Assembly (NCBI RefSeq): GCF_030403745.1
Contig: NZ_JAQMWP010000014.1
Span: 1-64,000, forward strand
Direction of reading: 5' to 3'
Source: Streptomyces sp. S.PB5
Lineage (GTDB): Bacteria > Actinomycetota > Actinomycetes > Streptomycetales > Streptomycetaceae
Length of the DNA stretch: 64,000 nucleotides
Shown here: positions 1 to 34,323 of the stretch, in pieces
Numbering within the stretch: the first letter of the stretch is position 1
Layout: every line of letters starts with the position of its first letter
Made by a program: the position numbers and the translations under genes
Notes under the pieces: model-generated
Seen by the model: the letters and a program-made list of their open reading frames with translations, nothing else
Databases searched by the model: none
What the model was told of the DNA's origin: nothing

Positions 1-3000
1 GGTACGGCAGGCCGTCACCGTGGTCCGTGAGGACACCCCGGGCGACAAGCGCCTGGTCGCCTACCTCGTCCCGGTCGAAGGCTCGGTGATCGAACCGCGT
101 GTCCTGCGCGAGGCCCTGGCCCAGGAGCTGCCGGACTACATGATCCCGGCGGCCTTCGTGGAGCTGGACGCGATCCCGCTCACCACCAACGGCAAGCTCG
201 ACAAGAGGACCCTGCCCGCTCCGGAGGCCGGACAGCTGCGCAGCGCGGGCGAGTTCACCGCTCCCCGCACCCCTCTCGAGGCGCATGTCGCCGAGATCTG
301 GCAGCAGGTGCTCGGGGTCGACAAGGTCGGCGTCCACGACAGTTTCTACGAGCTCGGCGGCGACTCCATCCGCGCGGTCATCCTCGTCGGCACCCTGCGC
401 GACGCCGGCTACCAGGCCGAGGTCCGTGACCTCATGGAGCACCCCGTCCTCGAGCGCCTCTGCGTTCTGATCGCCGGACGCGAAGCCGGCGGCTCGGGCC
501 CGCGCCGTCCGGTCGAACCGTTCGAGCTGGTCCCCGAGGCGGACCGCGACCTGCTTCCCGAAGGGCTCGACGACGCCTACCCGCTGACCCAGAGCCAGCT
601 GGGCATGCAGATCGAGATGCTCTCCGACCCCGAGAACCCGGCGTACCACCTGGTGAGCAGTCTGCGGATCCGCGACGAGCGGGCGTTCGACCCGCGGCTC
701 TTCCAGCAGGCGGTGGACTCCCTGGTGGCCCGGCACGACGTGCTGCGCACCGGGATCAGCCTCGACCGCGGCTCCGTCCCCCTGCAACTGGTGCACGGTG
801 ACGTGCGCGCCGAGGTCGAGCTCGTGGACCTGACGGCGCTCACCGACGAACGGGCCGAGGCGGCGGTCAGGGAGTACGCACAGCGGTTGTCCCGCACGCC
901 GCTCGACCCGGCGTCCGTGCCGCTGCTGCGGTTCACCGTCCACCTGTGCGCGGACGGCAGCTGGCAGCTCACCGCCGTCAACTCCCATGTGATCCTCGAC
1001 GGTTGGAGCACACGTCAGCTCTTCAGCGAGCTGTTCGGGACCTACCACGGACTGCTCGCGGGCGAGCCTGTGGTCCACGAGAGCCCGGCCCTGCGGTTCG
1101 CCGACACGGTCGCCGCGGAGCTCGAGGCCCTGGAGTCGGCCGAGGAGCGCGACTACTGGCGGACGCTCGTGACCGGCACGGAACGGTTCACCGTCCCGGC
1201 CGGCTGGGGCTCGGACCAAGAGGAGGACGGCGGGCTCTACGTCCTGAGCGTGCCGTACGCCGACCTGGAGACCGAACTGCGCCGCCTGGCCGTGCAGTCG
1301 GGGGCGCCCTTCAAGAGCCTGCTGCTCGCCGCGCACCTCAAGGTGCTCAGCCAGCTCACCCCGGAGGAGGCCTTCCTCTCGGGCCTGACCCACCACGTGC
1401 GTCCCGAGGCGCCCGGAGCGGACCGGATCGCGGGCATGTTCCTCAACGTGCTGCCGATCCCGCACCACCGCACGGCCCGCACCTGGCGGGACCTGGTCGC
1501 GCAGACCTTCGCCACCGAGCGGACCACCTGGACCCACCGGCACTTCCCGATGCCGGTGATCGAGGGGGAGTACGGCGGTGGCGGCCGGCTCATCGAGGCG
1601 TACTTCAGCTTCCACGACTTCGAGGAGGCCGAGGACGCGGCGGGCGGCGCCATGGTCGACGCCACCGCGGCACTCGGATCGAGCACCAACGAGTTCGGCC
1701 TCGCCGTGTCGACGGCACCGGGACGCCTGCAACTGCGCTGCTCGCCGCGACTGGTGTCGCGTGCCCATGGTGAGCGGTTGGCGGGGATGTACCGGGCGGT
1801 GTTCGAGGCGATGGCGCTCGGTGGCGGAGGGGACGCTTCGGCGGTGTTCTTGCCGACGGTGGACTCTCAGTCGCTGAGCGGCTGGGAGGCCTCCGGTGAG
1901 GGTGCTGTGCGTGAGGGCGTGCCGGTGCCGGTCGTCTTCGCTGAGCGGGCTGCTGCGGCGCCGGATGCTGTGGCCGTCGAGGGCTCTGGTTTCTCGCTGT
2001 CGTTCGGGGAGTTGGAGGTGTCGTCGAATCGGTGGGCGGCGTATCTGGGGTCTGTCGGGGTCGGTCGTGGCTCGGTGGTCGGCGTGCTGCTCGAGCGGGG
2101 TGTGGACCTGCATGCGGTGATGCTGGGTGTGTGGAAGGCGGGGGCGGCGTTCGTGCCGCTGGACCCGGGCTTCCCGTCCGGCCGGGTCGCCGGGATGCTT
2201 GCTGACGCCGGCGCGAAGGTGCTGGTCACTGAACTGGCCTCGGCGCCGGTGGAGTTCGACGGCCGACTGGTCTGCGTGGATGATCCGGAGGTTGCTGGTG
2301 CGGTTGCGGGCGGTTCGGATGCGGCGTCGGGTGTGGTTCTTGATCCGGATGAGCTGGCCTATGTGATCTATACGTCGGGGTCGACGGGTCGTCCGAAGGG
2401 TGTGGCGGTCACGCATCGGGGTCTGGCCAATCATCTGGGCTGGGCGCAGCGGGAGTTGGCGGGTGCCGGTTCCGGTGGTGGTGCGGTGTTCTCGTCGGTG
2501 GCTTTCGATCTGGTGGTGCCGAATGTGTGGGCGCCGCTGCTGGCGGGGCAGCGGGTGCATCTGCTGCCGCAGGATCTCGACCTGTCGGAGCTGGGTGAGC
2601 GGCTGGTGGCGGCCGGTCCGTTCAGTTTCCTGAAGCTGACGCCGGGGCATTTGGAGATCCTGGCCCAGCAGCTGAGCGACGAGCGGATCGCGGGTCTGGC
2701 GTCGGTGATCGTGGTGGCGGGTGAAGCTCTTCAGGCCTCGCTCGCGTCCCGGTTCACGCGGGTCCTGGGTGAGGGCCGTCTGGTCAATGAGTACGGGCCC
2801 ACCGAAGCGTCCGTCGGCACCTGCATCCACCCGGTGCCGCTGGGCGCGGGGCAGGGTGTGGTGCCGATCGGGGCTCCGCTGCCCGGCATGGTGATGCGCG
2901 TCCTGGACTCCGGCTATCGCCGTGTCCCGGTCGGTGCCGTGGGTGAGCTCTACGTCGCCGGAACCGGTGTCGCCCGCGGTTACCTCGGCCGATCGGCCCT

Positions 3001-4732
3001 GACCGCCGAGCGGTTCGTGCCCGACCCGTACGGTCCGTCCGGTTCCCGGATGTATCGCACGGGGGATCTGGCGCGCTGGGTGGAGCCGGGCGTGGTGGAG
3101 TTCCTGGGCCGTACGGATCACCAGGTGAAGATCCGTGGCTATCGGATCGAGACCGGCGAGATCGAAGCCGTCCTGCACAACCACCCGCAGATCAGCGAGG
3201 CGCTCGTCATCGGATACGAGCCCGCCCCGGGTGACGGCAGGCTCGCCGCGTATGTGGTGCCGCGCTCCGGAGCCGACGCGTTCGACTCCGCCGCGCTCAC
3301 CGCGTACTGCCGTGACCAGCTGCCCGACTACATGATCCCGGGCAGCTTCACCGAGCTGCCGGCCCTGCCGCTCAACGCCAACGGCAAGATCGACCGGGCT
3401 CAACTCCCCGACCCCGCCGAGGCGGTGCGGCAGCGCCGGTACAGCGCACCGCGCAGCGAGACCGAGCGGCGTCTCGCGGCGATCTGGGCGGATGTGCTCG
3501 GTGCGGAGCAGGTCGGCCGGGAGGACGGGTTCTTCTCCCTCGGCGGACACTCGATCCAGGTGATCAAGGTGATCGCCGCCTGCCAGCGGGAGCGGCTGCC
3601 GCTGTCGCTGTTCATGCTCTACCAGCACGAGACGCTCGCCGACGTGGCCGCGGCCGTGGACGCGGCGGCATCCGAGCCGGCGCCGTCCGAGTCCGCGGCG
3701 GGCCGGTCCCGGGTGCCCGCGGGCAGTGAACTGGACGCGCTGCTCGCCGACTACGCCGTGCCCGGTGCCTCCGTCGCCGTGCTCGAAGGCGGTGACCTGG
3801 TCGCCGTGGAGAGTGCGGGACAAGACGGACAGGGGCGGCCGGTGACCCCGCGGACGAGGTTCCAGGCCGGCTCGATCAGCAAGCACATCGCGGCACTCGG
3901 CGCGATGCGGCTCGTGGAGGAAGGGGTGCTGCGGCTCGACGAGGACGTGAACCGCTACCTCGCCGGCTGGCAGGTGCCGGGCGCCCCCGGCGACACCCCG
4001 GTCACCCTGCGCCACCTCCTGGGCCACCGCTCGGGTCTCACCCCGACCCCGGGCAACGGGTTCGTGCCCGGCGGCCATCTGCCGTCCCTGCTCGACCTGT
4101 TGACCGGCGCGGCCGATCCGGCGGTGGCCCCCGTGGGCCGTGGAGTGGAGCCCGGTGCCGGGTTCCGCAAGGCCAACGTGCACTACGTCGTGCTGCAGAA
4201 GGTGATGGAGGACGTCACCGGTGAGCCGTTCGACGAGCTGATGCGGCGCCTCGTGCTGCTGCCGGCCGGCATGAACGACAGCAGCTTCGCCGCCGACTGT
4301 CCGGAGCGGTCCGGAGTGCTCGCGGCGTACGGACACGACGCCGACGGCCGGCTGATCGAGGGCGGCCGGCGGATCAGGCCCGACGCCGCGGCGGCGGGGC
4401 TGTGGACCACGGCGTCCGACCTCGCCCGGGCGGCGCTCGAACTGCGGCGCTCCGCGCTCGGCAGGCCGCTCGGCCTGCTGTCCAGGCAGACCGCCGAGCT
4501 GATGCTGACGCCTGCCGCCGACAGCCTCTACGGGCTCGGCACCGTCGTCGACGTGCTGAGCTCCGACACCGAGTTCGGGCACGGCGGCACCCCGGTCGGC
4601 TACTACGGCGCGTCCGTGCTGCGCCTGGGCACGGGGCGTGGCCTGGTGGTGCTCACCAATGGTGAGTCCGGTGAGCACGTGGCCAAGGCGGTCGCGGCCC
4701 GAGTGCGCAACGCGGCGGGCGACCCCCGCTGA
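1..4732 (+). CDS. NRPS subunit, 5'-truncated: (A)-T-C-A-T-PBP/beta-lactamase-like release domain
   Basis: The frame is open from base 2, so the gene starts left of the window. Domains by position: end of an adenylation (A) domain with NGKLDK (~200), carrier (T) domain LGGDSI (~352-369), condensation (C) domain ~570-1870 whose HHxxxDG motif reads SHVILDG (first His is Ser, catalytic His kept), complete A domain ~1920-3400 ([26 protein letters not shown]), second T domain LGGHSI (~3540), then a serine beta-lactamase/DD-peptidase-like domain ~3730-4710. My eight-position reading of the complete A domain gives code DLPKVAEVG(K), which I cannot assign; Lys at position 278 often goes with Asp/Asn-type substrates. 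The last domain has SISK (Ser codon 3872) and HGG (4580), but KAN (4169-4177) where the family has YxN. As the last domain it probably releases the peptide by hydrolysis or cyclisation, as the usually free-standing PBP-type thioesterases do. There is no E domain in the last module. Confidence 0.93.
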
Positions 4733-5120: not shown

Positions 5121-6404
5121 ATGACCTCAACGGACACCCTCCCTCCCGACGCCCCTGCCTTCCCGCCCTTGCGCCGCAACCGCGACTTCCGTCGCCTGTG
5201 GCTCGGCGCCGGTGCCGCGCTGCTCGGCAACCGCGCCGCCGTCACCGCGTATCCGCTGCTCTACCTCTGGGCCGGCGGGAGCCCGGCCGAGGCGGGACTC
5301 GTCGGCTTCGCCTCCCTGCTGCCCCAACTGCTCGTACTGCTGCCGGCGGGCGCCCTGGTCGACCGGCTCGACCGGCGCCGTGTGCTCATCACCTGCAGCC
5401 TCACCGGACTCACCGCCATGACCACCCTGGTCGCCGCGCTGCTCGCCGGCCGGCTCTGGCTCTGGCACGTCATGGCCGTCGCCTTCGTCCAGGGCGCCGC
5501 GGGCATCCTGCACCGGCTCGCCGAGCGGGCCGCCGTACGGCATGTCGTCCCCACCGGCCAACTGCGCACCGCCCTCGCGCAGAGCGAGGCCCGCGGTCAC
5601 GGCGCGGGGCTGCTGGGACAGCCCCTGGGCGCGGCTCTGTTCAGCGCGGCGCGCTGGCTGCCCTTCTGCGCCGCCGCACTCGGCCATCTCCTCGCCCTGG
5701 CGACGGTGTCCGGGATCCGTGCCGACCTGCAGGACAAGGCGCGGCCCGAGCCCCGCTCCCTGCGCCGGGAGATACGCGAAGGCCTGGTGTGGGTGTGGCG
5801 GCAGCGTTTCATGAGAGCGTCCATCGCCCTGGTCGGCGGCAGCAACCTCGCCTTCCAGCTGATCACCCTGGCCATGGTCCTGATCGTCAAGGAGAACGGG
5901 CACAGCGCCGCCATGGTCGGCGTGCTCGGCGTGCTCGGCGGCCTGGGCGGTCTGACCGGCGCCCTCGTCGCCCCCTGGATCAACCGCCGTCTTCCCGTAC
6001 AGGTGATCCTCATCGGTGCCCTGGCCCTGTGGTCCGTCCTGATGGCGGCCGTCGCCGTGGCCGACCATCCGGTCCAACTCGGCGCCCTGATGGCCGGGAT
6101 GAGCGGCGCGGGTGCCCTGCTCAATGTCGCCGCGGGCAGCTATCAGGTCCTGGTCACCCCCGATGCCATGCAGGGCAGGGCCACCAGTGTCTTCACCCTG
6201 ATCGGCTCCGGCCTCAACTCCCTCGGGGCGCTGATGGGCGGCTTCCTGCTGCATGCCCTCGGCAGCACCACCGCCGTGCTCGGCGCCGCCGCAGCCATGG
6301 CCCTGCTCGCGCTCACGGCACTCGCCTCTCCCGTCGTACGACGCGGAGGAGACGGCCACGAGAGCGCGCCGAACGGCCCAGACCGGCCGATATCGATCCA
6401 GTAG
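5121..6404 (+). CDS. MFS transporter, probable peptide exporter
   Basis: A 427-aa polytopic membrane protein with about 12 hydrophobic segments. The start of the protein (RNRDFRRLWLG) and the loop after TM2 (DRLDRRRVL) are typical of the MFS group that includes EntS-type exporters. The ATG follows a purine-rich stretch. It lies downstream of the first NRPS gene and 77 bp upstream of the MMPL gene, so it probably exports the NRPS product or gives self-resistance. Family membership is well supported; the substrate is inferred from context only. Confidence 0.85.
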   Translation: MTSTDTLPPDAPAFPPLRRNRDFRRLWLGAGAALLGNRAAVTAYPLLYLWAGGSPAEAGLVGFASLLPQLLVLLPAGALVDRLDRRRVLITCSLTGLTAMTTLVAALLAGRLWLWHVMAVAFVQGAAGILHRLAERAAVRHVVPTGQLRTALAQSEARGHGAGLLGQPLGAALFSAARWLPFCAAALGHLLALATVSGIRADLQDKARPEPRSLRREIREGLVWVWRQRFMRASIALVGGSNLAFQLITLAMVLIVKENGHSAAMVGVLGVLGGLGGLTGALVAPWINRRLPVQVILIGALALWSVLMAAVAVADHPVQLGALMAGMSGAGALLNVAAGSYQVLVTPDAMQGRATSVFTLIGSGLNSLGALMGGFLLHALGSTTAVLGAAAAMALLALTALASPVVRRGGDGHESAPNGPDRPISIQ

Positions 6405-6481
6405 AGAACCCCCGTATAGGACCTACAGGAACCGCGACGGCGCCGAACCGCCGGAGCACGCACCGCACCGTAGGAGACTTC

Positions 6482-8749
6482 ATGCCCACACATCCCCCCA
6501 CCGAGGCCGGAGTTCCCCCGGCACGCGCGCCGCTCACCGAGCGGATCGCGGGCTGGTCGGCCCGTAACGCCAAGAAGTCGATCGCCGGCTGGCTGCTGCT
6601 CGTGGTCCTCTCCGTGCTGGCGGGCTCGGCCGCCGGAAGCGGTGCCAAGACCACCGACGCCGGAGAGTCCGGCCGGGCTCAGCGGATCATCCGCGAGGAG
6701 CGGACCATCGCGTCGTACTCCGAGAACATCCTGGTCGAGTCCGATCGCCGCGACAGCCGCTTCGCCGACGACCCGCGGCTGCGGGCCGCGGTCAAGGACG
6801 TGGTCGCGGCGCTGCGCGGTGCGGACGGCGCGGCCGAGAAGGTGCTCAGCCCGCTCGACGGCGCTGAGGCGGCCGCCGAGCTGGTCTCGGAGGACGGCCG
6901 CAGCGCCCTGGTCACCTTCGAGATCCCGGGCCCCGGTCCGAAGGCCGACACCCGGTTCGCCGCGATCAAGAAGTCGGTGGCCGAGGTGCGCGAGACGCAC
7001 CCGGACGTCCGTTTCGCGATGGCCGGCGACCTGTCCCTGACCGCCGCCGTCGACCAGGCCGCCGACGAGGACCTGGCGCAGGCCGAGACGCTGTCGCTGC
7101 CGGTCACCCTGATCATCCTGCTCGTGGTCTTCGGCGCCCTGGTCGCCGCCGCGGTGCCGGTGCTGCTCGCCGCGACCGCGGTGCTCGCGGCGACCGGCCT
7201 GCTCGCGGTGGCGGGCACGGTGGTCCCGGCCAACAGCACCGTCTCCTCGGTGGTGCTGCTCGTCGGCATGGCGGTCGGTGTCGACTACTCGCTGTTCTAT
7301 CTGCGCCGTGACCGCGAGGAGCGGGCGGCCGGACGTACCCCCGCCGAGGCGCTGCGGATCAGCGCGCGCACCTCCGGGCACGCCGTCGTGGTCTCCGGGC
7401 TCACCGTGATGCTCTCCATGGCCGGGCTCTTCCTCACCGGCGTCGACGTGTTCAACGGCATGGCCGTCGGCACCATCATCGTGGTCGGCCTCGCCGTGCT
7501 CGGCTCCGTCACCGTGCTGCCCGCGACGCTCTCGCTGCTCGGCCCCCGGGTCGACGCCCTGCGGGTGCCGTTCCTCGGCCGCCGGCGCACCACCGCCACC
7601 AGGTCCACGCTGTGGACGGCCACCGCCGCCGCCGTGGTCAAGAAGCCGCTGCTGCTCGGCGGCGCCGCGCTGCTCGCACTCGGCGCGCTGGCGGTGCCCG
7701 CACTCGACATGAAGCTCAGCGAGCCGGGCCGCCTCGACTCACTGCCGCGCAGCATTCCCGAGGTCGACGCCGGCATCCGGCTCCAGGAGGCCTTCCCCGG
7801 CGGCCCGGATCCGGCGCAGATCGTCGTCTGGGGCCAGGGCGCCACCGACGGCAGGGCGGACGCCGCCGTCGACGCCGTCCGCGAGGCGGCCGCCGGCAGC
7901 AAGCTGCTCGGCGAGCCGGTCACCGTGCAGAAGGTCGGCGACGTCCTGAGCGTCAAGGTGCCGCTGGCCGGCAAGGGCACCGACGCCACGTCGGTCAAGG
8001 CGCTCACCGAGTTGCGCGAGGACGTCCTGCCGCGCGCTTTCGAGTCCACCGAAGGACTCCACTACGCGGTCACCGGACGCACCGCCGGACTGCATGACTT
8101 CGCGGAGGTGCTCGACCAGCGCTCGGCGTGGGTCATCGGCTTCGTCCTCGCCATCTCCCTGGTGCTGCTCATCGCCGCCTTCCGCGCCCCGCTGGTGGCC
8201 ATCGCCTCCGTGCTGCTCAACCTGCTGTCCATCGGCGCGGCCTACGGCGTGATCGTGCTGGCCTTCCAGCACGGCGGACTCGCGGGGCCGCTCGGCTTCA
8301 CCTCGTTCGGCGGGATCGTCAACTGGCTGCCGCTGTTCATGTTCGTGATCCTGTTCGGCCTGAGCATGGACTACCACGTGTTCATCCTGAGCCGGATCCG
8401 CGAGCGCCGGCAGCGCGGTGAGAGCGCCGAGGACGCCGTCACCCAGGGCGTCGGCGCCAGCGCCGGGGTGGTGACCAGCGCCGCCGTTATCATGATCGCC
8501 GTGTTCGCGCTGTTCGCGACGCTCTCCGGTATCGAGTACAAGATGCTCGGCATCGGCATGGCGACCGCCATCCTGCTCGACGCGACCATCGTCCGCGGCA
8601 TTCTGCTGCCCGCCGTCCTCGCCCTGCTCGGCGACCGCGCCTGGGGCCGTCCGCGTCCCGGTACTGGCCCGTCCGCGGACGAGCCCGTCGTCCAAGAGCC
8701 CGCGGAGGAGCCCGAGACCGCCCAGACACCTACCCTCCTGAGGACCTGA
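6482..8749 (+). CDS. MMPL/RND-family transporter
   Basis: A 755-aa protein with the duplicated MMPL layout: N-terminal TM (~25-45), extracellular domain to ~190, a block of TMs including GVDYSLFYLRR, a second extracellular domain, and a second TM block containing GLSMDYHVFILSRIRE. These are the family's conserved Asp-Tyr TM motifs. The ATG at 6482 was chosen because AGGAG lies 6 nt upstream; the frame is open far upstream but without a matching start. Actinobacterial MMPL proteins (mycobacterial MmpL, ActII-3 of actinorhodin) use proton-motive force to export lipids or secondary metabolites. It sits in an operon with the MFS gene and the lipoprotein, suggesting a second export or resistance path for the peptide. 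Confidence 0.9.
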   Translation: MPTHPPTEAGVPPARAPLTERIAGWSARNAKKSIAGWLLLVVLSVLAGSAAGSGAKTTDAGESGRAQRIIREERTIASYSENILVESDRRDSRFADDPRLRAAVKDVVAALRGADGAAEKVLSPLDGAEAAAELVSEDGRSALVTFEIPGPGPKADTRFAAIKKSVAEVRETHPDVRFAMAGDLSLTAAVDQAADEDLAQAETLSLPVTLIILLVVFGALVAAAVPVLLAATAVLAATGLLAVAGTVVPANSTVSSVVLLVGMAVGVDYSLFYLRRDREERAAGRTPAEALRISARTSGHAVVVSGLTVMLSMAGLFLTGVDVFNGMAVGTIIVVGLAVLGSVTVLPATLSLLGPRVDALRVPFLGRRRTTATRSTLWTATAAAVVKKPLLLGGAALLALGALAVPALDMKLSEPGRLDSLPRSIPEVDAGIRLQEAFPGGPDPAQIVVWGQGATDGRADAAVDAVREAAAGSKLLGEPVTVQKVGDVLSVKVPLAGKGTDATSVKALTELREDVLPRAFESTEGLHYAVTGRTAGLHDFAEVLDQRSAWVIGFVLAISLVLLIAAFRAPLVAIASVLLNLLSIGAAYGVIVLAFQHGGLAGPLGFTSFGGIVNWLPLFMFVILFGLSMDYHVFILSRIRERRQRGESAEDAVTQGVGASAGVVTSAAVIMIAVFALFATLSGIEYKMLGIGMATAILLDATIVRGILLPAVLALLGDRAWGRPRPGTGPSADEPVVQEPAEEPETAQTPTLLRT

Positions 8750-8754
8750 CACCC

Positions 8755-9390
8755 ATGCGCAAGCCCATCACCGCCGCCCTCGCCGTAGCCGCTCTCGCCA
8801 CGCTCTCCGGGTGTGAGATGGACGAGGCGTTCGGCAACGACAAGTCGAACTCCGAGTCCAGTTACACCGTCACCGACAAGGTCCGTGCGCTCGATCTCGA
8901 CACCAAGGGCGGCCATGTCGAACTGATCGTCACCGACGCCGAGTCCGTCAAGGTCACCGAGAAGTTCTCCTACAGCGACGACAAGCCGGCCACGAGTCAC
9001 CAGGTCGAGGGCGGTGAGCTGCGGCTGACCGGCGGCGGCTGCGACACCGGTGACTGCTCGGTCAGCTACCGCATCGAGCTGCCGGCCGAGACCCAGCTGC
9101 GGGTGGACAGCGGCGGCGGCCACATCACCGGCAAGGGGCTCGCGGGACCGGCCCGGCTGCGCACCGAGGGCGGCCATGTCGACGTCTCCTTCACCAAGGC
9201 CCCGGACCGCATCTACGCGGCGAGCGGCGGCGGTGACATCACCGTGCAGGTTCCCGGCGGCCCGTACGCCGTGAGCATCGACGCCGAGGGCGGCAAGAGC
9301 GAGACGGCCGTCGACAACGACCCGAACGCCAAGCGGAAGATCGAGGTCCGCAGCGACGGCGGTGATGTGAAGGTCAAGTACGCCCAGTGA
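8755..9390 (+). CDS. Lipoprotein with DUF4097-like beta-strand repeats
   Basis: A 211-aa protein with a lipoprotein signal peptide: positive n-region, hydrophobic stretch, lipobox LSGC with Cys20 as the lipidated residue. The mature part is beta-strand-rich with recurring Gly-Gly/His turns (TKGGHVEL, SGGGHITGKG, TEGGHVDVSF, SGGGDITV, SDGGDVKV), which resembles the DUF4097/adhesin-like beta-solenoid family. It starts 5 nt after the MMPL stop, so the two are translationally coupled. A role as extracytoplasmic partner of the MMPL transporter is possible but inferred from position. A strong hairpin closes the operon downstream. Confidence 0.75.
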   Translation: MRKPITAALAVAALATLSGCEMDEAFGNDKSNSESSYTVTDKVRALDLDTKGGHVELIVTDAESVKVTEKFSYSDDKPATSHQVEGGELRLTGGGCDTGDCSVSYRIELPAETQLRVDSGGGHITGKGLAGPARLRTEGGHVDVSFTKAPDRIYAASGGGDITVQVPGGPYAVSIDAEGGKSETAVDNDPNAKRKIEVRSDGGDVKVKYAQ

Positions 9391-9492: not shown

Positions 9493-9559
9493 GCCGTTTG
9501 TGCCCGCGTCGCTGCAAGGCCACGACCGTCTCTGTCAAGGCCACGACCAGGGAGCCCTC

Positions 9560-10333
9560 ATGACTCGTTCCAGCTGGCTGCGGGTGTTCGACCCGCGGCC
9601 CGCACCCCGGCTGCGGCTGTTCTGCTTCCCGCACGCCGGGGGCGCCGCCAGCGCCTTCCACCCACTCGCGGCCCTGCTGCCCGAGGAGATCGAGGTGGTC
9701 GCCGTCCAGTACCCCGGACGGCAGGACCGCTACGGCGAGCCGATGCCCCGCTCCATGGGGCACCTCGTCGCCGAGGTCACCGACGCCGTCGCGGGACGGC
9801 TCGATCTGCCGGCCGCGTTCCTCGGCCACAGCATGGGCGCCACCGTCGCCTTCGAGACCGCCCGCCGGCTGCGTGCCACCCATCCCGTCGCCCTGCGCAG
9901 GCTGTTCGCCTCCGCCCGCCGCGCCCCGCACATCGACACCGGCCGCGCGCTCGACTTCGCCGACGACGCCGCGGCCATGGCGTACATCGACGCGCTGGGC
10001 GGCACCGGGGCCGAGCTGCTCAAGGACGCCGATCTGCGCGACCTCGTGCTGCCCGTGCTGCGCGCCGACTTCCGTCTGATCGCGGGCTACCGCTATGTGC
10101 CCGGTGCCCCGCTCACCTGTCCCATCACCGCGATCGCCGGCGACAGCGACGCCTCGTTCGCCCTCACCGACGCGGCCCAGTGGAACCGCCACACGATCGC
10201 CGGCTGCGAGACGCGGGAACTGCCCGGCGGCCACTTCTACCTGGAGGACGAGATGCCGGCGCTCGCCGCGCTCGTGCTCGACGCGCTCGCCGCCGATCTC
10301 CCCGCCCCGCAGCCCCCCGCAAGGAGCCTTTGA
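9560..10333 (+). CDS. Type II (editing) thioesterase of the NRPS cluster
   Basis: A 257-aa alpha/beta hydrolase of the GrsT/RifR type II thioesterase family. The nucleophile elbow is GHSMG (Ser91), the Asp candidate is in GDSDASF (Asp197) and the His is in GGHFYLED (His225). FCFPHAGG near the N-terminus is the oxyanion-side motif usual in the family. These enzymes clear mis-primed or stalled carrier proteins. ATG 9560 has GGGAG upstream and was preferred to an in-frame start at 9500. The stop overlaps the MbtH start (TGATG), so the pair is translationally coupled. Confidence 0.93.
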
Positions 10334-10639: not shown

Positions 10640-13600
10640 GTGACATCTCTGACCCGCCTGCCGCTGTCCGCGGCGCAGACCGGTATCTGGTTCGCGCACC
10701 ACATGGATCCGACCGGCCATGCGTACAACATCTCCGAGTACGTGGAGATCAACGGCCCGGTGCGGCCCGATCTCTTCGACGAGGCCTGGCGGCACACGAT
10801 CGACGAGGTGGAGACGCTGCGGGTGCACGCGCTCGCCGAGGACGGCGACGGTTCGCTGTGGCAGCTGCTGCACAGCGCCCCCGAACGCGGCCTGGAACAC
10901 GTGGACGTCTCGGTGGCCGCCGACCCGCACGCCGCGGCCATGGAGTGGATCCACCGCGACCTCGGCACGGCCATGGACCTCACCCGGGGCGGCCTGTGCA
11001 CCTTCGCGCTGCTGCGCCTGGCCGCCGACCGCTTCCACTACTACCAGCGCGTCCACCATGTGCTGATCGACGGCTACGGCGGCTCCCTGATCTCCCGCAA
11101 GGTCGCCCGCAGATACACCGAACTGGTCACGGGCGAACTGCCGGAGGACGGCGTCGAACCGTCCGCGTCCCTCGCCGAACTCCTCGACGAGCAGACGGCG
11201 TACCGGGCCGGCGAGGCCTTTGATGCCGACCGCGCCTTCTGGCAGCGGGAGTTGACGGACCTGCCGGCCCCCGCCCGCCTCCACGACCAGATCGCCTGCC
11301 CCGAGCCCGGCCCCGCCGACCCCGGAGCCGTGCACATCCGGCGCAGCACGCACCGCCCGCAGGAGTTCGCCGACCGGCTCGCCGACGCGGCCCGTGCCGT
11401 GCGCACCCGCTGGCCGGTCCTGGTCATCGCCGCGGCCGCGGCCTTCGTGCACCGCAGCACCGGCGCCCGCGAGGTGGTCCTCGGACTGCCCGTCGCCTGC
11501 CGCGACTCCGCGGTGCTGCGCAGCACCCCGGGTCTGGCCTCCAACGTGGTGCCGCTGCGCATCCCCGTCAGCCCCGAGGACAGCTTCGCCGAGCTCGTGC
11601 CGAAGGTCACCGCCCGTACCCGCCAGGTGCTCAAGCACCAGCGGTACCGCTACGAGGACATGCGCCGAGATCTGGGCCTGACCGACGGCGACGCGGGACT
11701 CACCGGCCCGGTCGTCAACATCATGGCGTTCCCGTACCGGCTCGACTTCGCGGGCCTGCCCGCCACCGCGCACAACCTGGCGCTCGGCCCCGTCGACGAC
11801 CTCTCCATAGCCGTCTACGACCGCGGTGACGGCAGCGGTCTGCGCTTCGACTTCGACGGCAACCCCGAGCGGTACGCGGCAGGCGGCCTCGACGGCTGCC
11901 AGGACCGGTTCCTGCGTTTCCTGGAGCGGATCACCGAGCGGCCCGCCGCGCCGCTCGGTCGGATCGACCTGCTCGGCGCCGAGGAGACGCGCCGGGTGAC
12001 CGCCGACTGGAACGCCACCGAAGGCCCTGTTCCGGACGGCTCCCTCGCGCGGCTCTTCGAGGAGCAGGCGGCCCGCGCCCCGGACGCGATCGCCGTGGCC
12101 GCGGACGACATGGAGCTGACCTACGCGGAGCTCGACGCCCGCGCCGACTCCGTCGCCCACCGGCTCATCGAGCACGGCGTCGGCGCCGAGACCCCGGTCG
12201 CCGTACTCCTCGAGCGCTCCCCGGCGGTGGTCGTCGCCACGCTCGCCGTGCTCAAGGCCGGCGGCACCTACGTCCCCCTGCACTCCGGCTACCCGGCCGA
12301 GCGCATCGCCTGGGTGCTCGGCGACATCGGCGCCCCGGTGCTGATCTCCGACCGCCCGGACGCCGAACTGCCCTTCGCCGAGGGCCGGGTGGTGCTGCGC
12401 GTGCCCGAGAGCGCGGGCGCCGCTGCCGAGCGCTTCGGTACCGCTCCCCGCCCCGGCCGCAGCGTGTCGCCCCGGCAGCTCGCGTACATCATGTACACCT
12501 CGGGCTCGACCGGCGTCCCCAAGGGCGTCGCCGTCGAGCAGCGCGACGTCGTGGCGTTCAGCGCCGATCCGCGCTGGCGCGGTGGCGCCCACGACCGTCT
12601 CCTGATGCACTCCCCGCACGCCTTCGACGCTTCCACGTACGAGCTGTGGGTGCCGCTGCTCTCCGGCGGCACGGTCGTCGTCGCGCCCGCCGCGGGCCTG
12701 GACGCCGCGAAGCTGCGTGAGCTGTCCGCCCGGCACGGCGTCACCAGCGCGTTCCTCACCGCCGCGCTCTTCAATCTGATCGCCACCGAGGACCCGGGCG
12801 CGTTCGCGGGTCTGCGCGCGGTCATCACCGGCGGCGAGGCGGCCGCGCCCGCCTCGTTGCGCCGGGTCCGCGAGGCCTGCCCCGGCCTCGAACTGGTCAA
12901 TGGCTACGGGCCGACGGAGACGACGACGTTCGCGGCCTGCCACACCATGGACCGGATCGACGAACTCCCGCCGATCGGCGCCCCGATGCAGAACATGCGG
13001 GCCTACGTCCTCGACAGCGCACTGCGACCGGTGCCGGTGGGTGTCAACGGCGAGCTGTACCTCGCCGGTACGGGGCTCGCGCGCGGTTATGCGGGCCGTC
13101 CCGTCCTGACGGCCGAGCGCTTCGTGGCCTGTCCGTTCGGCGCTCCGGGCGGGCGGATGTACCGGACCGGGGATGTGGTGCGGTGGCGGGCGGACGGGGT
13201 CCTCGAATACCTCGGGCGCGGCGACGACCAGGTGAAGATCCGCGGCTTCAGGATCGAACTCGGCGAGATCGAGGCCGCGTTGGGCGCGGTGCCCGGCGTG
13301 GACCAGGCCGCCGTCGTGGTCCGCGCGGACGGGCCCGGAGCACAGCGGCTCGTGGGGTACGCCGTCGGCGCCGGACTCGACCCGCACACCCTCCGCGAGA
13401 CGCTGGCGGGGACCCTGCCGGAGTTCATGGTGCCGCAGGCCGTGGTCATCCTCGACGCCCTGCCGCGCACCGCGAACGACAAGCTCGACCGAGCCGCACT
13501 CCCCGCGCCGGAGCTCACCGGGACCGGAACAGGCCGCGCCCCCGCCACACCCGCCGAACAGGCCTTCACCGCCGCCTTCGCCGAGGTGCTCGACGTTCCC

Positions 13601-13870
13601 CGCGTCACCGTGGAGGACGGCTTCTTCGACCTGGGCGGCGACAGCATCCTCGCCCTGCGCGTGGTCACCCTGGTCCGGGCCGCGGGCTTCGAGATCAGCG
13701 CCCGCGACGTCTTCCGGCTGCGCACCCCTGAGGCCCTCGCCGCGGCCGCCCGGCCGGTGGACCCGGCCGCCGTCGCCTTCGACGACGACACCCCGCTGCT
13801 GGACCTCGACGACGACGAACTCGCCCTGCTCACCGCGGGCCTGACCGCCGAGGCCGGTGAGACGCGATGA
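10640..13870 (+). CDS. NRPS subunit C-A-T with EntF-like starter C domain
   Basis: 1076 aa. The C domain (~5-430) has HHVLIDG at ~139 and opens with [17 protein letters not shown]. That opening and segments such as FHYYQRVHH and [11 protein letters not shown] resemble the C domain of EntF, which accepts an aryl/acyl donor from a free carrier protein. With nothing before it, this is probably the initiation C domain. The A domain (~455-960) has [11 protein letters not shown]; my code reading is DAYFIGGTF(K), closest to aliphatic (Val-type) codes, low confidence. The A10 motif reads NDKLDR, with the catalytic Lys kept. The T domain has LGGDSIL (~998). GTG start with GGGGA upstream; the 3' end overlaps the next NRPS start (ATGA). 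Confidence 0.92.
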
Positions 13871-16800
13871 GCGCACTGCCCCCCGGTGTCGCCGACCTCC
13901 TCCCGCTCACGCCGCTGCAGGAGGGCTTCCTGCTGCACGCCGCCCAGAACGAGCCGGGCTCCGTCGACGTCTACGCCACCCAGATCCGCGTAGACCTCGA
14001 CGGGCCCCTCGACCCGGCACGGCTGCACACCGCCGCCCGCGCTGTGCTGGCCCGGCACAGCGCCCTGCGCGCATCGTTCCGCCACCACGGCCTGAAGCGT
14101 CCGGTGCAACTGGTGCACAAGGACGTACAACTACCGTGGGTTCAGCACGACTTGACGGGTCTGGCGGAGTCCGGACGCGAGGACGCCGCGCTGCGGCACG
14201 CGGCTGATGAACGCAGCCGCGGCTTCGACCTCACCACTGCGCCACTGCTGCGCTTCGCCGTGCTGCGCCTCGCGGAGCGGCACCACCGGATCGTCGTCAC
14301 CGTGCACCACATCCTGTGGGACGGCTGGTCGGTGCCCGTGGTCCTCGCCGAACTCTTCCGGCTGTACGCCTCGGGGGAGCATGCCGCCCTGCCGCCCGCC
14401 CCGCCCTTCCGTACCTTCCTCGCCTGGCACAGGGCTCAGGACCGCGCAGGCGCGGAACAGGCCTGGGTGGCGGCCCTCGACGGGCTCCAAGGGCCGACGC
14501 TGTACGCCCCGCAGGCGGCCGAGCTGCCGGCGGTGCTCCAGCGCGAAGCCCGCGCCGAGGTGCCCGCCGAGGTCGTGGCAGGGCTCGCCGAGGCGGGCCG
14601 CGCGGGCGGCTTCACCCTCAACACCGCGGTCCAGTTCGCCTGGGGACTGCTCCTGTCCCGGCTCACCGGCAGCGACGACGTGGTGTTCGGCGGGACGGTC
14701 TCGGGACGGCCGCCCCAGCTGCCTGGCGTGGACCGGATGGTCGGCATGCTGCTCAACACCCTGCCGGTGCGCGTACGCCTCGACGCGGCCGAGCCGGCCG
14801 CGCGGGCGCTCACCCGGCTGCAGCGCGAACAGGCCGAGCTCCTCGACCACCAGCACCTCGCCCTGACCGCCGTGCAGAAGCAGGCGGGCCACGGCCCGCT
14901 CTTCGACACGACCACGGTCTTCCAGAACTTCCCGGTCGACTACGCGGCGATCGCCGCCCCGCTCACCGAGGCGGGACTGACCCTCGTGGACGCGGCCGTC
15001 GCCGACTCCACCCATTACCCGCTCCGGCTCGCCGCCACCCTGGACGACGGCGCCCTCGACCTGCGGCTCGGCCACCGGCCCGACCTGATCCCCGACGCCG
15101 AGGCCCGGCTGCTGCTCGACCGGCTGACCGGACTGCTCACCCAGATCTCCGGACAACCCGGTCTGCCCGTAGGCGAGTTGACGCTGCTCACACCGGGTGA
15201 GCACGAGACGGTGGTCGACCGCTGGAACGACACCGCGGGCCCGCGGCCCACGGGAACCCTCATCTCCCGCTTCGAGGAACAGGCCGACCGCACACCGGAC
15301 GCCGTCGCGGTCGTCTTCGAGGGACGCGGCGTCAGCTACCGCGACCTCGACACCGCGGCGAACCGCCTCGCGCACCGCCTGCTCGCCCAGGGCGCGGGCC
15401 CCGACCGGCTGGTGGGCGTGGCCGTGCCGCGCTCCCTCGACCTGATCATCGCGCTGTACGCCGTCCTGAAGACCGGCGCCGCCTATCTCCCCGTGGACCC
15501 CGACTATCCGCTCGGACGCATCGCCCAACTGCTCGAGGACGGACGGCCGGTGTGCACGCTCACCACGACGGCCGTCGCCGAGCGGCTGCCGGCGGACGGC
15601 CGTGCGCTCCTGCTCGACGAGCCGGACCCGCAGGCGTACCCCGCGCACCGCCCCGCCGCGGCGGCCGGCCCGGCGGACACCGCGTATGTCATCTTCACCA
15701 GTGGCTCGACCGGCCGGCCCAAGGGCGTCGCCGTCCCGCACCAGGGCATCGTCAACCGCCTGGCGTGGATGCAGGACCGCTACGGACTGCGGCCCGGGGA
15801 ACGGGTCCTGCAGAAGACCCCGGCCGGTTTCGACGTGTCCGTATGGGAGTTCTTCTGGCCACTTCTGTACGGTGCGACGCTGGTCGTCGCCCGTCCGGAG
15901 GGGCATCGCGACCCCGAGTATCTCGCCGGGCTGATCCGGGACGAACAGGTCACCACCGTGCACTTCGTGCCCTCGATGCTGGGCGCCTTCCTCGGTGACC
16001 CGGCGGCCGCGGCCTGTACGGGGCTGCGCCGGGTGGTGTGCAGCGGCGAGGCGCTGCCCGCGGAGCTCGCGCGGCGGTTCTTCGAGGTGCTGCCCGGAGT
16101 GGAACTGCACAACCTGTACGGGCCGACGGAAGCCTCGGTGGACGTCACGGCCTGGGAGTGCCGGCCCGCGCGGGAAGAGCGGTCCGTGCCGATCGGAGCG
16201 CCGATCCGCAATGTGCGCACCTATGTGCTCGACGCCGCGCTGCGGCCCGCTCCGGTGGGCGTGGCGGGGGAGTTGTACCTCGCCGGAGTCCAGCTGGCCC
16301 GCGGCTATGTGGGCCGTCCCGTCCTGACGGCCGAGCGCTTCGTGGCCTGTCCGTTCGGCGCTCCGGGCGAGCGGATGTACCGGACCGGGGATGTGGTGCG
16401 GTGGCGGGCGGACGGGGTCCTCGAATACCTCGGGCGCAGCGACCACCAGGTGAAGATCCGCGGGCTGCGGATCGAACTCGGCGAGGTCGAGACGGCCCTC
16501 GCGCAGGCCGCGGGGAGCGCGCAGTGCGTGGTCGTGGTACGCGAAGACCGGCCCGGCGTACAGCAGTTGACCGGGTACGTCGCCGGGTCCGCGCGCGACC
16601 CGCGGGCCATCCGTACGGCCATGGCGAACACGCTGCCCGACTACATGGTGCCGCAGACGGTCGTGCTGCTCGACGCGCTGCCGCTGACGCCCAACGGCAA
16701 GGTGGACCGGGCCGCGCTGCCCGCGCCCGAGCAGCCGGCCGCCGCGCGTCGCCGCGCCCCCGGCACCGACGCCGAGCGGGTGTTCGTGGAGGTCTTCGAA

Positions 16801-19800
16801 GAGGTCCTCGGGCTGACCGGGGTGTCGGCCGAGGACGGCTTCTTCGACCGGGGCGGCGACAGCATCCTCGCCATGCGTGTGGTCTCCCTCGCCCGAGGGC
16901 GGGGCCTGGAGATCACCGCACGCGAGGTCTTCCGGCTGCACACGCCCGAGGCGCTCGCCGCGGCCGCCCGTCCCGAGCGCGCCGGCCGGCCCACGGAACC
17001 GGCGACCGGCCCGGCGCCGCTGCCACCGGTGGCCCACGACGCGCTCGCCCAGGGCGCCCCGGTCGACGGCTTCCACCAGGCGGTCCTCCTCGAACTCCCG
17101 CCGCAGACCGATGACGCGGACCTCGTCCGCGCACTCGGCACCCTGCTCAACCGACACGACCTGCTCCGGGCACGCCTCGTGCGCGACAGCGACGGGCGCG
17201 TGACGGCTGGCGAGGCCGTGCCGGGCAGCGAGACCGTGGCGGGTGGCGGGGCCGTGCCGTGCAGCGAGACCGTGGCGGGCCCCGAGACCGTGGCGGGCCC
17301 CGAGACCCTGGCGGGTGGCGAGGCTGTGTCGGGCGGCGGGTGCGTCGCGGGCCCCGAGGTCGTCCTGGGCGACGGGTGCGTCGCGGGTCCCGAGGCCGTG
17401 CCGGTCGACGGGCGTGTGGCGGGCCCCGAGACCCTGGCGGGTGGCGAGGCTGTGCCGGGCGGCGGGTGGGTCGCGGGCCCCGAAGCCGTCCTGGGCGACG
17501 GGCGCGTCGCGGGTCCCGAGGCCGTGCCGGTCGACGGGCGCGTGCCGGGCCCCGAAGCTGTGCCGGGCAGCGAGGCTGTGCCGGGCAGCGAGACCGTGGT
17601 GGGTGGCGGGGCCGGAACGCGCGGCAAGGGCGGCATGGCCCGCATCCGCTACGAGATCGCCGCCCCCGGCACCACCGACCCCGCCGGCTGCTACCGCCGC
17701 GAGGACGCCTCGGCCTCCGTCGCCGCCGTGGCCGAAGCCGCCCGCGACCGGCTCGACCCCTGGTCCGGCGTCACGCTGCAGGCCGTACGGATCGGTTCCG
17801 ACCGGCTGCTGCTGTGTGTCCATCACCTCATGGTGGACGGCGTCTCCTGGCGCGCCCTGCTGCCGGACCTGGTCGCCGCCGTATACGACCCGGACGCGCT
17901 CGCCCCCGTCCCCACGCCGTATCGCGCCTGGGCCCTCGATCTGCAACGGCGTGCCGCCGACGGGGCCTGGCGGCACGAGCTCGGCCGCTGGACCGAGGTC
18001 CTCGACGGCGCCGGTGAACCCCCGCTCGGTGAGCGCCGCACGGACCCGGCCCGGGACAGCGCCGCCACCGCCCGGCACACCAGGATCACGGTGCCGCCGC
18101 ACATCGCGGGACCGCTGCTCGGCGAGGTGCCGGGCGCGTTCCACTGCCGCCCCGACGAACTGCTGCTCACCGCTCTCGCCAGGGCTGTCGCCGCGTGGCG
18201 GGTCCGGTACGGCGGCGCGGACCACGACGCCCCCGTGCTCGTCGACATCGAAGGCCACGGCCGCGACGGCGACCTCGATCTGTCCCGTACGGTCGGCTGG
18301 TTCACCAGCGTTCACCCGGTCCGCGTCACCGGCCACGGCGGCACCGCGGCCGCCGCGGTGAAGCAGGTCAAGGAGGAGCTGCGGGCCCACGCCGGACCCG
18401 GCTTCGGAGCGCTGCGCCATTACGACCCGCACGGGGGCGCGGCGCTCGCGGACCTGCCCGGCCCGCAGATCCTCTTCAACTACCTGGGCCGGATCGGCGC
18501 CGAGGACATCGCCCCCGGCTGGCGTGTCCTCAGCGGCGACGAACTGCCGTACGGACGCGGCCCCGGGATGCCCCTGCGGCATGCTCTGGAACTGAACGTC
18601 CACAGCGACGGGCAGTACCTGCACGCGCTGTGCACCACCGCGTCCGGAGTGCTCACCGACGCGCAGACCGCCGAGCTGATGGACCTGTGGCAGTCGGAGC
18701 TGGCCGCGCTCGCCGCGCTCGCCGACCAGCCCGGCGCGGGCGGCCGCAGCCCTTCGGACCTGCCGCTGCTCGACCTCACGCAGGAGGAGATCGAGAGAAT
18801 CGAGCAGGTGGCCCCCGGCCTCACCGAGATCCTCCCGGTCACCGCCCTGCAGGAGGGCTTCCTCTTCTACGCCGAGCAGGCGCGGGGCCGTGCCGACGGC
18901 ATCGACGTGTACACCAATCAGGTACGGCTCGATCTCGAGGGCCCGGTGGACAGTGCCGCCCTGCTCGCCGCGGGCGAGCGGCTGCTCGCCCGGCACACGG
19001 CGCTGCGCTCGTCCTTCCGGACCACGCCGCGCGGCACCGCCGTGCAGACGGTCCACCGCGAAGCGGCCCTGCCCTGGGCGGAGATCGACCTGTCAGGCCG
19101 CCCGGCCGACGACCAGGCCGCCGAAGCGGCACTCATCGCCGAGGGCGACCGGGTGCGCCCCTTCGACATGACCAGGCCCCCGCTGCTGCGGCTCACCCTG
19201 ATCCGCTTCGGAGCGCACCGCCACCGCCTGGTGCTGACCGGTCACCACATCATCTGGGACGGATGGTCCACGCCCGTGCTGGTCGGCGAACTGCTGCGGC
19301 TGTGGGCCGACGGCCGCGCGGCCGCCCTGCCCAGGCCCGTACCGCACCGCGAGCACCTGCGGTGGCTGTCCGGCCAGGACGAGGCCGCCGCGGAGCGGGC
19401 CTGGGCCGCCTATCTGGCCGGTGACGCGCAGCCGTTGCTCGTCGCGCCCGAGTCCGAGCACCGTGCGGCCGTGCTGCAGCACACGCTCGAGGAGGAGCTG
19501 CCGGCAGCCGTGACCGCGGAACTCACCGAACGGCTGAGGCCGCACGGCGTCACGCTCAACACGGCCCTCGAGTTCGCCTGGGGCCTGGTGCTGGCCCGGA
19601 CGACCGGTCGCGACGACGTCCTGTTCGGCACCACCGTCTCGGGCCGGCCTCCCGAACTGGCGGGCTCCGAGCGGATGGTGGGGCTCTTCGTGAACACCGT
19701 CCCGGTGCGCATCCGGGTACCCGCCGAGGCGAGACTGATCGACGCCCTGGTCCGCGCCCAGGACGAACGCGCCGACCTGCTCGACCATCTGCATCTGGGG

Positions 19801-20172
19801 CTCGGCAGGATTCAGCGCCCGACCGGACACGCGCGGCTGTTCGACACCACGACCATGCTCGTCAACTACCCCTTCGACACGGCGGCCCTGAACCCCGCCG
19901 GCGCCCGGGCAGAGGTCACCGGCTTCGGTCTCGACGACGCCACCCACTACCCCCTGCGCCTGGTGGCCGTACCTCAGCGGGACGGCGGGCTCGCCGTACG
20001 CCTTGGACACCGGCCCGATGTGGTGCCGCGTGAGGAGGCGGCGGCGTATCTCGAACGGACGCTGCGGGCCCTTGCCGAACTGGCCCGGGATCCCGGCCGG
20101 CCGGCCGGGCAGGTGGACCTGCTGAGCGAGCGGGAGAGAGCGATGCTCCTGTCGCAGTGGGGAGGCTACTGA
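13867..20172 (+). CDS. NRPS subunit C-A(Ser)-T-E-C
   Basis: 2101 aa. C1 ~8-430 (HHILWDG ~146); A ~455-950 with code DVWHVSLVD(K), a good match to serine; T ~965-1040 (GGDSIL ~996); epimerisation (E) domain ~1055-1620 with [10 protein letters not shown] (~1319), [19 protein letters not shown] and ILFNYLGR; then C2 ~1640-2090 (HHIIWDG ~1793). The protein ends right after C2 (QWGGY), so the next A domain must come from another polypeptide. D-Ser is the predicted residue. The E domain is interrupted at ~1113-1256 by a Gly/Pro/Val-rich repeat. The start overlaps the preceding NRPS stop by 4 nt. This is the last structural gene before the regulators. Confidence 0.93.
17205..17634 (+). repeat. In-frame tandem repeats inside the E domain
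   Basis: A stretch of about 430 bases made of short repeats coding for VAGPE, EAVPG, VLGDG and PVDGR elements. The clearest unit is 126 bp (42 codons), present as two adjacent near-identical copies at 17290-17415 and 17416-17541. All units stay in frame. The insertion lies between the N-terminal helix/strand of the E domain (HDLLRARL) and the strand starting ARIRYEI, where E domains normally have only a short loop. Confidence 0.9.
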
Positions 20173-29220: not shown

Positions 29221-29556
29221 ATGGCGACGAGGATCTCGGTTTCGGTCAAGGGGCTGACCGGACTGGACGACCCGGACCGGATGCTCGCGGAGCTGGAGGC
29301 GGCGACCCGGATGTCGTGGCGGCCGGAACCGGTCGCCGAGGGGCGCGTCCTGTCGAGCGGGATCGTGGAGATCATCCTCGTGGCGGTGGCCGTCAAGGGC
29401 GCCGAGATGACCCTGGAGGCCACGGTGGCCGCGGTGAAGGGCGTCGTCGAGCGGTGGCGCCGGGAGCGGCTCGAACCGCCGGAGGCGAGGATCGACACCG
29501 AGCCCGTGCCGGACCCCGACCCCACGCCCGTACCCGACCCCGAACGGGGTGACTGA
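29221..29556 (+). CDS. EACC1-like small protein (effector-associated constant component)
   Basis: 111 aa. It starts MATRISVSVKGLTGLDD, has an aliphatic segment (SGIVEIILVAVAVKG) followed by an amphipathic helix (VAAVKGVVERWRRER), and ends in an acidic Pro-Asp tail (PDPDPTPVPDPERGD). This size and pattern fit EACC1, a small protein of unknown mechanism encoded next to caspase-like and other effectors in predicted actinobacterial conflict systems (Aravind group). GGGGAGG precedes the ATG. The caspase gene starts one base after its stop. The call rests on overall pattern and neighbourhood and would need a profile search to confirm. Confidence 0.72.
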   Translation: MATRISVSVKGLTGLDDPDRMLAELEAATRMSWRPEPVAEGRVLSSGIVEIILVAVAVKGAEMTLEATVAAVKGVVERWRRERLEPPEARIDTEPVPDPDPTPVPDPERGD

Positions 29557-29557
29557 C

Positions 29558-33961: not shown

Positions 33962-34323
33962 CCGCCCTGTCCCCCCGTGTTGCCTCGGCGGCTCCTGACA
34001 CACAGTGGCGACAGGGTACAGCGAGCGCTTCCTGTTGTGCCTGAAGTACGGTGCCCTCAGCCGGGGTTGGACCGGACGGCGGCGCAGGCCGCCACGTACC
34101 CGCGTCATGGCGTGGGAGAAGAGCACCCGGCATCCATAGCCGATGGTTATCGACGACGTTCTCGGACAGCCGCGCTGATCCGGTCGAACACTGGCTTCAC
34201 CAGGGGAATTTCCGGGACGGCCGGGCATGGTCAGGTGATGACCGCCGCCTGTGGATCGACGGGGGCAGGGCCACGAGATCGTCAACGGGGCGACGCCCCT
34301 GTCCGTCCTCGGGAGGCCCGTGG
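33962..34323. other. Intergenic region with an SDR-tail remnant
   Basis: About 360 bases upstream of the permease and downstream of the synthase-like gene. 34104-34130 matches 37051-37077, near the 3' end of the SDR gene, at 26 of 27 positions on the same strand. Bases 34285-34298 can form a small hairpin (GGGGC/GCCCC). No gene is seen; the permease promoter should lie in the left part. Confidence 0.55.

Follow-up and report, generated by a model that had tools for sequence, protein, structure and literature searches.

The window, by which we mean the whole 64,000-nucleotide stretch of Streptomyces sp. S.PB5 DNA that was analysed, opens inside an NRPS gene that is truncated by the contig start (base 1 of contig C6). 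The gene start and the earlier modules lie beyond the window, and the NRPS is known here from its remaining 3′ part (Table 1), which translates without a stop into 1576 aa. Its domain order is T-C-A-T followed by a PF00144 (S12/β-lactamase) domain, placed by Pfam at residues 1245–1571 with a score of 176.6 bits (cut-off 27); the protein has 0 residues beyond the matched domain. No epimerisation domain or other NRPS domain lies between the last T domain and the fused domain of the window protein, in which Pfam also gives no match to PF00975, the type I TE domain. The first-pass annotation had described a β-lactamase-fold domain fused 3′ of the last carrier, which the Pfam score and the absence of any NRPS domain between the two bear out. 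In the last module, the condensation domain carries a motif at 980–1009 that departs from HHxxxDG, and the adenylation domain has the specificity code DLPKVAEVGK (read by alignment), which we take to be Asn/Asp-like.

Table 1. Features of the window and of related loci; positions are those of the window unless a locus is named.
Feature	Position	Strand	Basis or remark
NRPS 3′ part, T-C-A-T-fused domain	2–4732	+	Translation, Pfam
Carrier (T) domain, penultimate module	287–463	+	Pfam PP-binding, residues 96–154
Condensation domain, last module	572–1741	+	Pfam Condensation, residues 191–580
Adenylation domain, last module	1937–3388	+	Pfam AMP-binding (residues 646–995) and AMP-binding_C
Last carrier (T) domain	3437–3667	+	Residues 1146–1222, directly 5′ of the fused domain
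Fused PF00144 (S12, β-lactamase fold) putative release domain, 338 aa, C-terminal	3716–4729	+	Pfam, AlphaFold2, fold matches
SISK, Ser53 to Lys56, then His57	3872–3883	+	Ser53 and Lys56 in 51/51 fused rows
KAN, Lys152-Ala-Asn154, at the YxN place	4169–4177	+	Structure-sequence alignments
HGG, His289-Gly-Gly291, at the KTG/HTG place	4580–4588	+	His289 and Gly291 in 51/51 fused rows
MFS transporter gene, adjoins the fused-domain gene	5121–6404	+	Pfam MFS_1
Stand-alone thioesterase	9500–10333	+	Pfam PF00975, 155 bits; GHSMG
NRPS C-A-T	10640–13870	+	Domain search
NRPS C-A-T and two condensation-type domains, the second C-terminal	13867–20172	+	Domain search
Carbamoyltransferase-like gene in L113	L113:21049–22005		
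SbnA/SbnB pairs	L175:12621–14602; L172:7903–9818		5′ of NRPS genes

Domain residues are numbered with residue 1 at window position 3716 (domain 3716–4729). As the first-pass annotation had reported, SISK and HGG are present and KAN occupies the place of YxN, a reading that emerges from alignments to R61, SurE, 2qmi, IS11 and 3wwx. In phmmer alignments, the Lys of FRKAN (Lys152) falls on the Tyr of Y-L-N in 2qmi, of Y-N-N (7spn, IS11) and of Y-S-N in both R61 (1cef/1sde) and 3wwx, and the sequence of SurE (6KSU) reads FSYSNTGY at its YxN motif. The same annotation had allowed that another Tyr-x-Asn might occupy the active site; none exists in the domain, whose 7 Tyr all lie outside such a motif. 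A one-off change or sequencing error as the origin of Lys152 is excluded, as Lys is also found in L033 (92% identical, from another strain) and across the lineage. The available text of PMC9889268 defines S12 by SxxK together with YxN; the window domain is a member of the S12/PF00144 family by its Pfam match, its predicted fold and its SxxK, and departs from it at YxN.

The AlphaFold2 model of the fused domain (mean pLDDT 94.0, pTM 0.93, from an input of 57 aligned sequences) has the predicted fold of β-lactamases and DD-peptidases. Foldseek ranks 2qmi (1e-22), IS11 and R61 highest and places SurE eighth (E 5.9e-21). Counting rows within 1 Z unit as ties, VIA gives Z values of 36.1 for IS11, 35.9 for 2qmi, 34.1 for SurE 6KSU (310 residues, 3.0 Å), 33.7 for R61 and 32.1 for Ulm16 8FEK. 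No lipocalin-like domain, nor any further domain, is present in the model.

We scanned a collection with one genome per species and compared the best 80 of 95 loci. Among the 40 of these that are NRPS-fused, the Tyr place holds Lys in 37 and Val, Pro and Tyr in one each; among the 40 that are not, it holds Tyr in 38 and Thr in one, and is masked in one (L092). Lys in 37/40 fused versus 0/40 non-fused domains is more than chance would give, and the search for other NRPS-fused domains with Lys at this place, which the first-pass annotation had suggested, thus finds a whole series of them. Two loci (L035 and L057) lie near contig ends with no preceding T domain seen and were counted as fused by tree position. 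Matches at E ≤ 1e-30 occur in 20 of 295 genomes across the genus, and matches at E ≤ 1e-35 in 7/394 and 3/396 genomes drawn from the class and the phylum, respectively; each count includes the window's own genome, and the draws overlap. Besides the window, 22 genus loci have Lys (17), Tyr (3), Ser (1) or a misaligned partial match (L029, covering 149–332, where the apparent Arg at the Tyr place is a product of the alignment). The loci from the class and phylum draws carry Lys (L183, L184, L185, L189), Val (L186) or Tyr (L188) in long frames and Tyr in short frames (L187, L190, L191). Within the window's own genome there are 15 other matches, and all nine relatives read have Tyr.

The conservation of the domain was assessed in 51 fused rows, drawn from three sources and including close kin, and in 20 non-fused rows (alignment A2, which like the 71-row tree is without L076, L081, L088, L089, L092 and L094–L112 of the 80 loci). 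Residue 152 is Lys in 42 fused rows, Tyr in four, Val in two and Pro, Ser and Leu in one each, versus Tyr in 20/20 non-fused rows. Ser53, Lys56, His289 and Gly291 do not vary in either set, and the five fused rows with Val, Val, Pro, Ser or Leu at 152 thus retain Ser53, Lys56 and His289. Other residues separate the sets: Trp230 (51/51 versus 14/20), His207 (50/51 versus 9/20), His57 (45/51 versus 0/20) and residue 154, which is Asn in 26, Ser in 15 and Gly in 10 fused rows and Gly in 14 and Asn in 6 non-fused rows. Between the window and L033, its nearest relative, dN is 0.036 and dS 0.243 (dN/dS 0.15). Together with the invariant Ser, Lys and His, this ratio makes decay of the domain unlikely.

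The 71-row tree unites all 51 fused rows (SH-aLRT 96); their closest group in our trees is the stand-alone YSGGG serine hydrolases of PF00144 (L068–L071, L073–L079, L082, L083, L085, L087, L090 and L093). These are short separate genes that keep the Tyr and have no NRPS fusion, whereas the window domain is fused and has Lys. All Lys rows fall within a 47-row group (87), and the Tyr members (L084; L116, L027 and L028) branch off outside it; five changes among Lys, Tyr and other residues suffice to explain the states at residue 152.

Adding L147, which is BifB-like, and ten SurE-type rows leaves the fused rows (93) with the YSGGG hydrolases (99.8); a separate group (99) takes in all eleven SurE-type rows. 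Constraining fused and SurE-type rows together is 15.9 log units worse and is not rejected (p-AU 0.164). Owing to the missing lipocalin-like domain and the grouping with stand-alone hydrolases (99.8), the window domain is probably not a SurE by descent, and on both counts we depart from the first-pass view of it as a thioesterase of the SurE/MppK kind that is merely fused. As the fused rows side with the YSGGG hydrolases and the SurE-type rows stand apart, the PBP fold likely entered NRPSs twice. The recruitment into actinomycete NRPSs was probably separate from that of SurE and would have started from a Tyr-bearing stand-alone hydrolase, with an early change from Tyr to Lys.

The window domain can be compared with several characterized systems. 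With SurE, PenA, Ulm16 and WolJ (available text of PMC11735501) it has in common the fold, the SxxK motif and the His of HxG. However, the SurE-type thioesterases are stand-alone and have a lipocalin-like domain, have Tyr in the YxN motif (SurE, by alignment) and act on substrates with a C-terminal D-residue or Gly (same text), whereas the window domain is fused, without a lipocalin-like domain, has Lys, and follows a module without an epimerisation domain and with a non-Gly code. Among its relatives, a C-type domain lies between the last T and the fused domain in L051, L084, L086 and L116, and a gap of ~400–450 aa separates the two in L040 and L115. Of the S12 enzymes, the R61 DD-peptidase, ClbP, class C β-lactamases and EstB/IS11 esterases share the fold and the Ser and Lys of SxxK, and R61 also aligns in its HTG region, but all of these have the Tyr of YxN and are free or membrane-bound.

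The first-pass annotation held that PBP-type thioesterases are normally separate proteins and use Tyr. The available text of PMC11735501 agrees that they are stand-alone but gives a catalytic tetrad of Ser, His, Asn and Lys without Tyr; in the S12 enzyme ClbP, S95, K98 and Y186 are reported to be indispensable (PMC9889268). An exception to the stand-alone form has been published: BifB, from the biffamycin A pathway of Streptomyces albidoflavus S4, has a cis-SurE domain, the deletion of which abolishes biffamycin A (PMC13285481, available text). BifB and the window protein thus both have a PBP-fold domain fused 3′ of the last NRPS carrier, and in BifB it is required for the product. The available main text of that paper does not name the catalytic residues and contains neither the term Tyr nor the term catalytic.

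In a SurE search of the 295 genus genomes, 69 matched at E ≤ 1e-35, and two of the matches lie in frames over 3000 aa (L147 and L148). One of the two, L148, has no A-domain motif and looks like a frame run-through. The other, L147 (G057:C1:5576000-5594000), has the domain order of BifB (C-A-T-C-C-A-T-SurE), keeps the Tyr (FSYSDVGY), extends 96 aa beyond the match in a SurE-like C-terminal tail and is likely biffamycin kin; its adenylation codes, DLGASGAIDK and DILQLGVIWK, are presumably Lys-like and Gly-like. Since this BifB-like protein retains the Tyr and the tail and clusters with SurE, the window domain is something different from a BifB-type cis-SurE.

Downstream of the fused-domain gene, the stand-alone thioesterase appears by its form to be of type II. 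The first-pass annotation had raised the presence of a canonical TE elsewhere in the cluster as an objection: this thioesterase exists, but no NRPS in the window ends in a TE domain. No convincing gene was found in the window at 6404–8755 and 30586–34324; six frames in and around these stretches were tried without a Pfam match (6143–7381−, 7739–8752−, 30550–32400−, 32246–33925+, 29221–29553+ and 29549–30583+). Stand-alone TE or α/β-hydrolase genes also occur near the fused gene in clusters H1, H2 and H3. At the end of the H1 cluster, a stand-alone “serine hydrolase” (L113:38754–39806) with IGGVTK and RQQITRANY apparently lacks the SxxK Ser and the Tyr and is a possible pseudoenzyme; the fused domain beside it has Val at 152.

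The fused protein ends the run of NRPS genes in clusters G295 and G296 and is the last of three in H3. In some loci the last module is split, and the fused domain is part of an A-T-domain protein (L050, L059, L060, L062 and L065 by Pfam; L056, L061, L063, L064 and L066 by BLAST), preceded in L050, L060 and L062 by an NRPS that ends in C. Cluster G295, which contains L034 (64%), encodes proteins with the orders A-T-C-A-T; C-A-T-C-A-T-C; and A-T-C-A-T-C-A-T-C-A-T-domain; a carbamoyltransferase; and a final NRPS pair (C-A-T; C-A-T and two C-type domains), as well as a separate upstream C-A protein with no assignable place in the line. The window pair at 10640–20172 matches this final pair, which, judging by its ends, would act first. 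In the window pair, the first C domain matches the myxochelin synthetase MxcG best in NCBIfam, with a score below the cut-off. If this is a starter C domain, the peptide would be N-acylated, and the head-to-tail closure made by SurE would therefore be impossible.

The upstream part of the window's NRPS line is likely the A-T-C-A-T-C-A piece at the end of contig C15 (L151), which is preceded by a TauD dioxygenase and a phosphopantetheinyl transferase; the NRPS contig C43 (L170) is another candidate for the missing 5′ part. The fragments on C15 and C43 stop at contig edges, and their A domains are up to 88% identical. No overlap was found between the ends of the window contig and those of C15 or C43.

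We examined 44 fused loci (the 40 fused among the best 80 of 95, and L113–L116); in 26, a carbamoyltransferase-like gene lies 3′ of the matched domain, at a distance of no more than ~250 bases. It forms one protein with the fused domain in L050 and shares its open frame in L056. The encoded protein keeps STRTR and HPTQ and has HDLP for HCLP. Lys152 is not a rule-bound companion of this gene, as either occurs without the other: Lys without carbamoyltransferase in the window and in L033, L035, L041, L045, L049, L052, L060–L067 and L072, and carbamoyltransferase without Lys in L054, L058, L113 and L114. In G295 and G296, the two carbamoyltransferase clusters read further upstream, SbnA and SbnB genes precede the NRPS genes, the G296 pair matching NCBIfam above cut-off. 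We take this pair to provide 2,3-diaminopropionate synthesis. Neither gene is present in the stretch read of G297, which has no carbamoyltransferase. In the window's genome, the best matches to the carbamoyltransferase (31%) and to SbnB (30%, E 1.5e-9) are not close, and an assignment of DLPKVAEVGK as a code for ureido-diaminopropionate is thus unsupported for the window.

The condensation domains of the lineage are also altered. In the fused lineage and its partner proteins (among them window 980–1009, L034, L036–L059, L080, L091 and L113–L115; the set also includes L084, which like L115 is without Lys152), the first His of HHxxxDG is replaced in 72 of 86 C domains, mostly by CHxxxE or SHxxxE, in the forms [C/S/other]HxxxEGWS or SHxxxDGWS. 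HH is kept in 12, 11 of them being C domains that come first in their stretch; the remaining two are epimerisation-like. Outside the fused lineage, the motif could be seen in 7/9 C domains of the window's genome, and all 7 have HH.

Based on these sequences, the fused domain is probably an active domain for terminal release by way of an acyl-Ser, with Lys152 in the role of Tyr. The finished peptide would be handed from the neighbouring carrier domain to Ser53 to give an acyl-enzyme as in class C β-lactamases and DD-peptidases, a step in which Lys56 of SxxK would act as base or relay. Lys152 stands where Tyr activates Ser and the incoming nucleophile, and would most likely assume an acid/base or electrostatic role with Lys56 and His289. 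Water or an internal amine or hydroxyl would then release the acyl-enzyme, yielding an acid or a ring product; we infer the catalysis itself, the acyl-Ser step, the part played by Lys152 and both modes of release from sequence comparison. The side chain of Lys has about the same reach as the hydroxyl of Tyr, and the pKa of each of two Lys falls when they lie close together; Lys152 could therefore be the neutral base. Among the points against this reading are the Tyr of 4/51 fused rows and the variation at residue 154, although Asn belongs to the tetrad in the available text of PMC11735501. Moreover, the five fused members with neither Lys nor Tyr mean that Lys is not strictly needed, or that these five differ.

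The same five members, which retain Ser, Lys and His, are also consistent with a reading that we consider possible but unlikely, namely that Lys56 and His do the chemistry of an active Ser/Lys(/His) release domain and Lys152 has an electrostatic or binding role (for phosphate, carboxylate or oxyanion). The lineage-enriched His57 and His207 may have taken over from Tyr, and the tetrad of PMC11735501 (available text) is without Tyr; however, Lys occupies the exact position of the catalytic Tyr, and it is kept in 42/51 members with differing last-module codes, so it is not matched to a single side chain. The first-pass annotation offered Lys as a substitute for Tyr or an inactive domain. Of these, we retain the substitute as the probable case, while the invariant Ser53, Lys56, His289 and Gly291 (51/51) and the low dN/dS speak against inactivity. 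A catalytically dead scaffold or docking domain, with release in trans, is accordingly very improbable, even though the stand-alone thioesterase of the window could be the release enzyme, such genes recur in H1, H2 and H3, and the indispensable Tyr of ClbP (PMC9889268, available text) makes its absence here a possible loss of activity. Also against a dead domain is the essential role of the domain in the related system BifB (PMC13285481, available text), though this is a SurE and its nearest look-alike here has Tyr.

It is also highly improbable that the domain performs a non-terminal step on the T-bound chain, with other NRPS proteins elongating further. This would fit the window, H1, H2 and G295, where NRPS genes lie downstream of the fused gene, and H6, where three adenylation-domain genes follow a Tyr-type fused gene. 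However, the downstream NRPS ends in C in the window, H2 and G295, and another NRPS protein starts with A-T, which by collinearity would place the downstream NRPS upstream in the line, and H3 and G296 have no NRPS gene 3′ of the fused gene on the same strand in the stretch read.

Terminal release with Lys152 in the Tyr role thus remains our preferred reading. A fused PBP-fold release domain is known from BifB; in the open-access literature, we found no account of an NRPS-fused domain with Lys for the Tyr of YxN, and this feature appears to be new there. More speculatively, and at rather long odds, the lineage may represent a third catalytic set, Ser-Lys-Lys-His as opposed to Ser-Lys-Tyr, of the penicillin-recognising fold in actinomycete NRPSs; most condensation domains of this lineage lack the first His of HHxxxDG, and part of it has a carbamoyltransferase and the genes for 2,3-diaminopropionate. 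Ring closure by the domain may there use a side-chain amine or ureide. If this is correct, a β-lactamase fold would make a lactam instead of breaking one.

A natural lineage with Lys for Tyr and invariant Ser, Lys and His would make the role of the Tyr (base, relay or electrostatics) testable by exchange of Lys and Tyr. Lacking the lipocalin-like part, the putative fused release domain is smaller than SurE, and it may be of use in NRPS engineering. The findings also suggest more than one entry of PBP-fold release domains into NRPSs, and the arrangement looks like a distinct, working way of releasing peptide natural products that is common to dozens of related enzymes.
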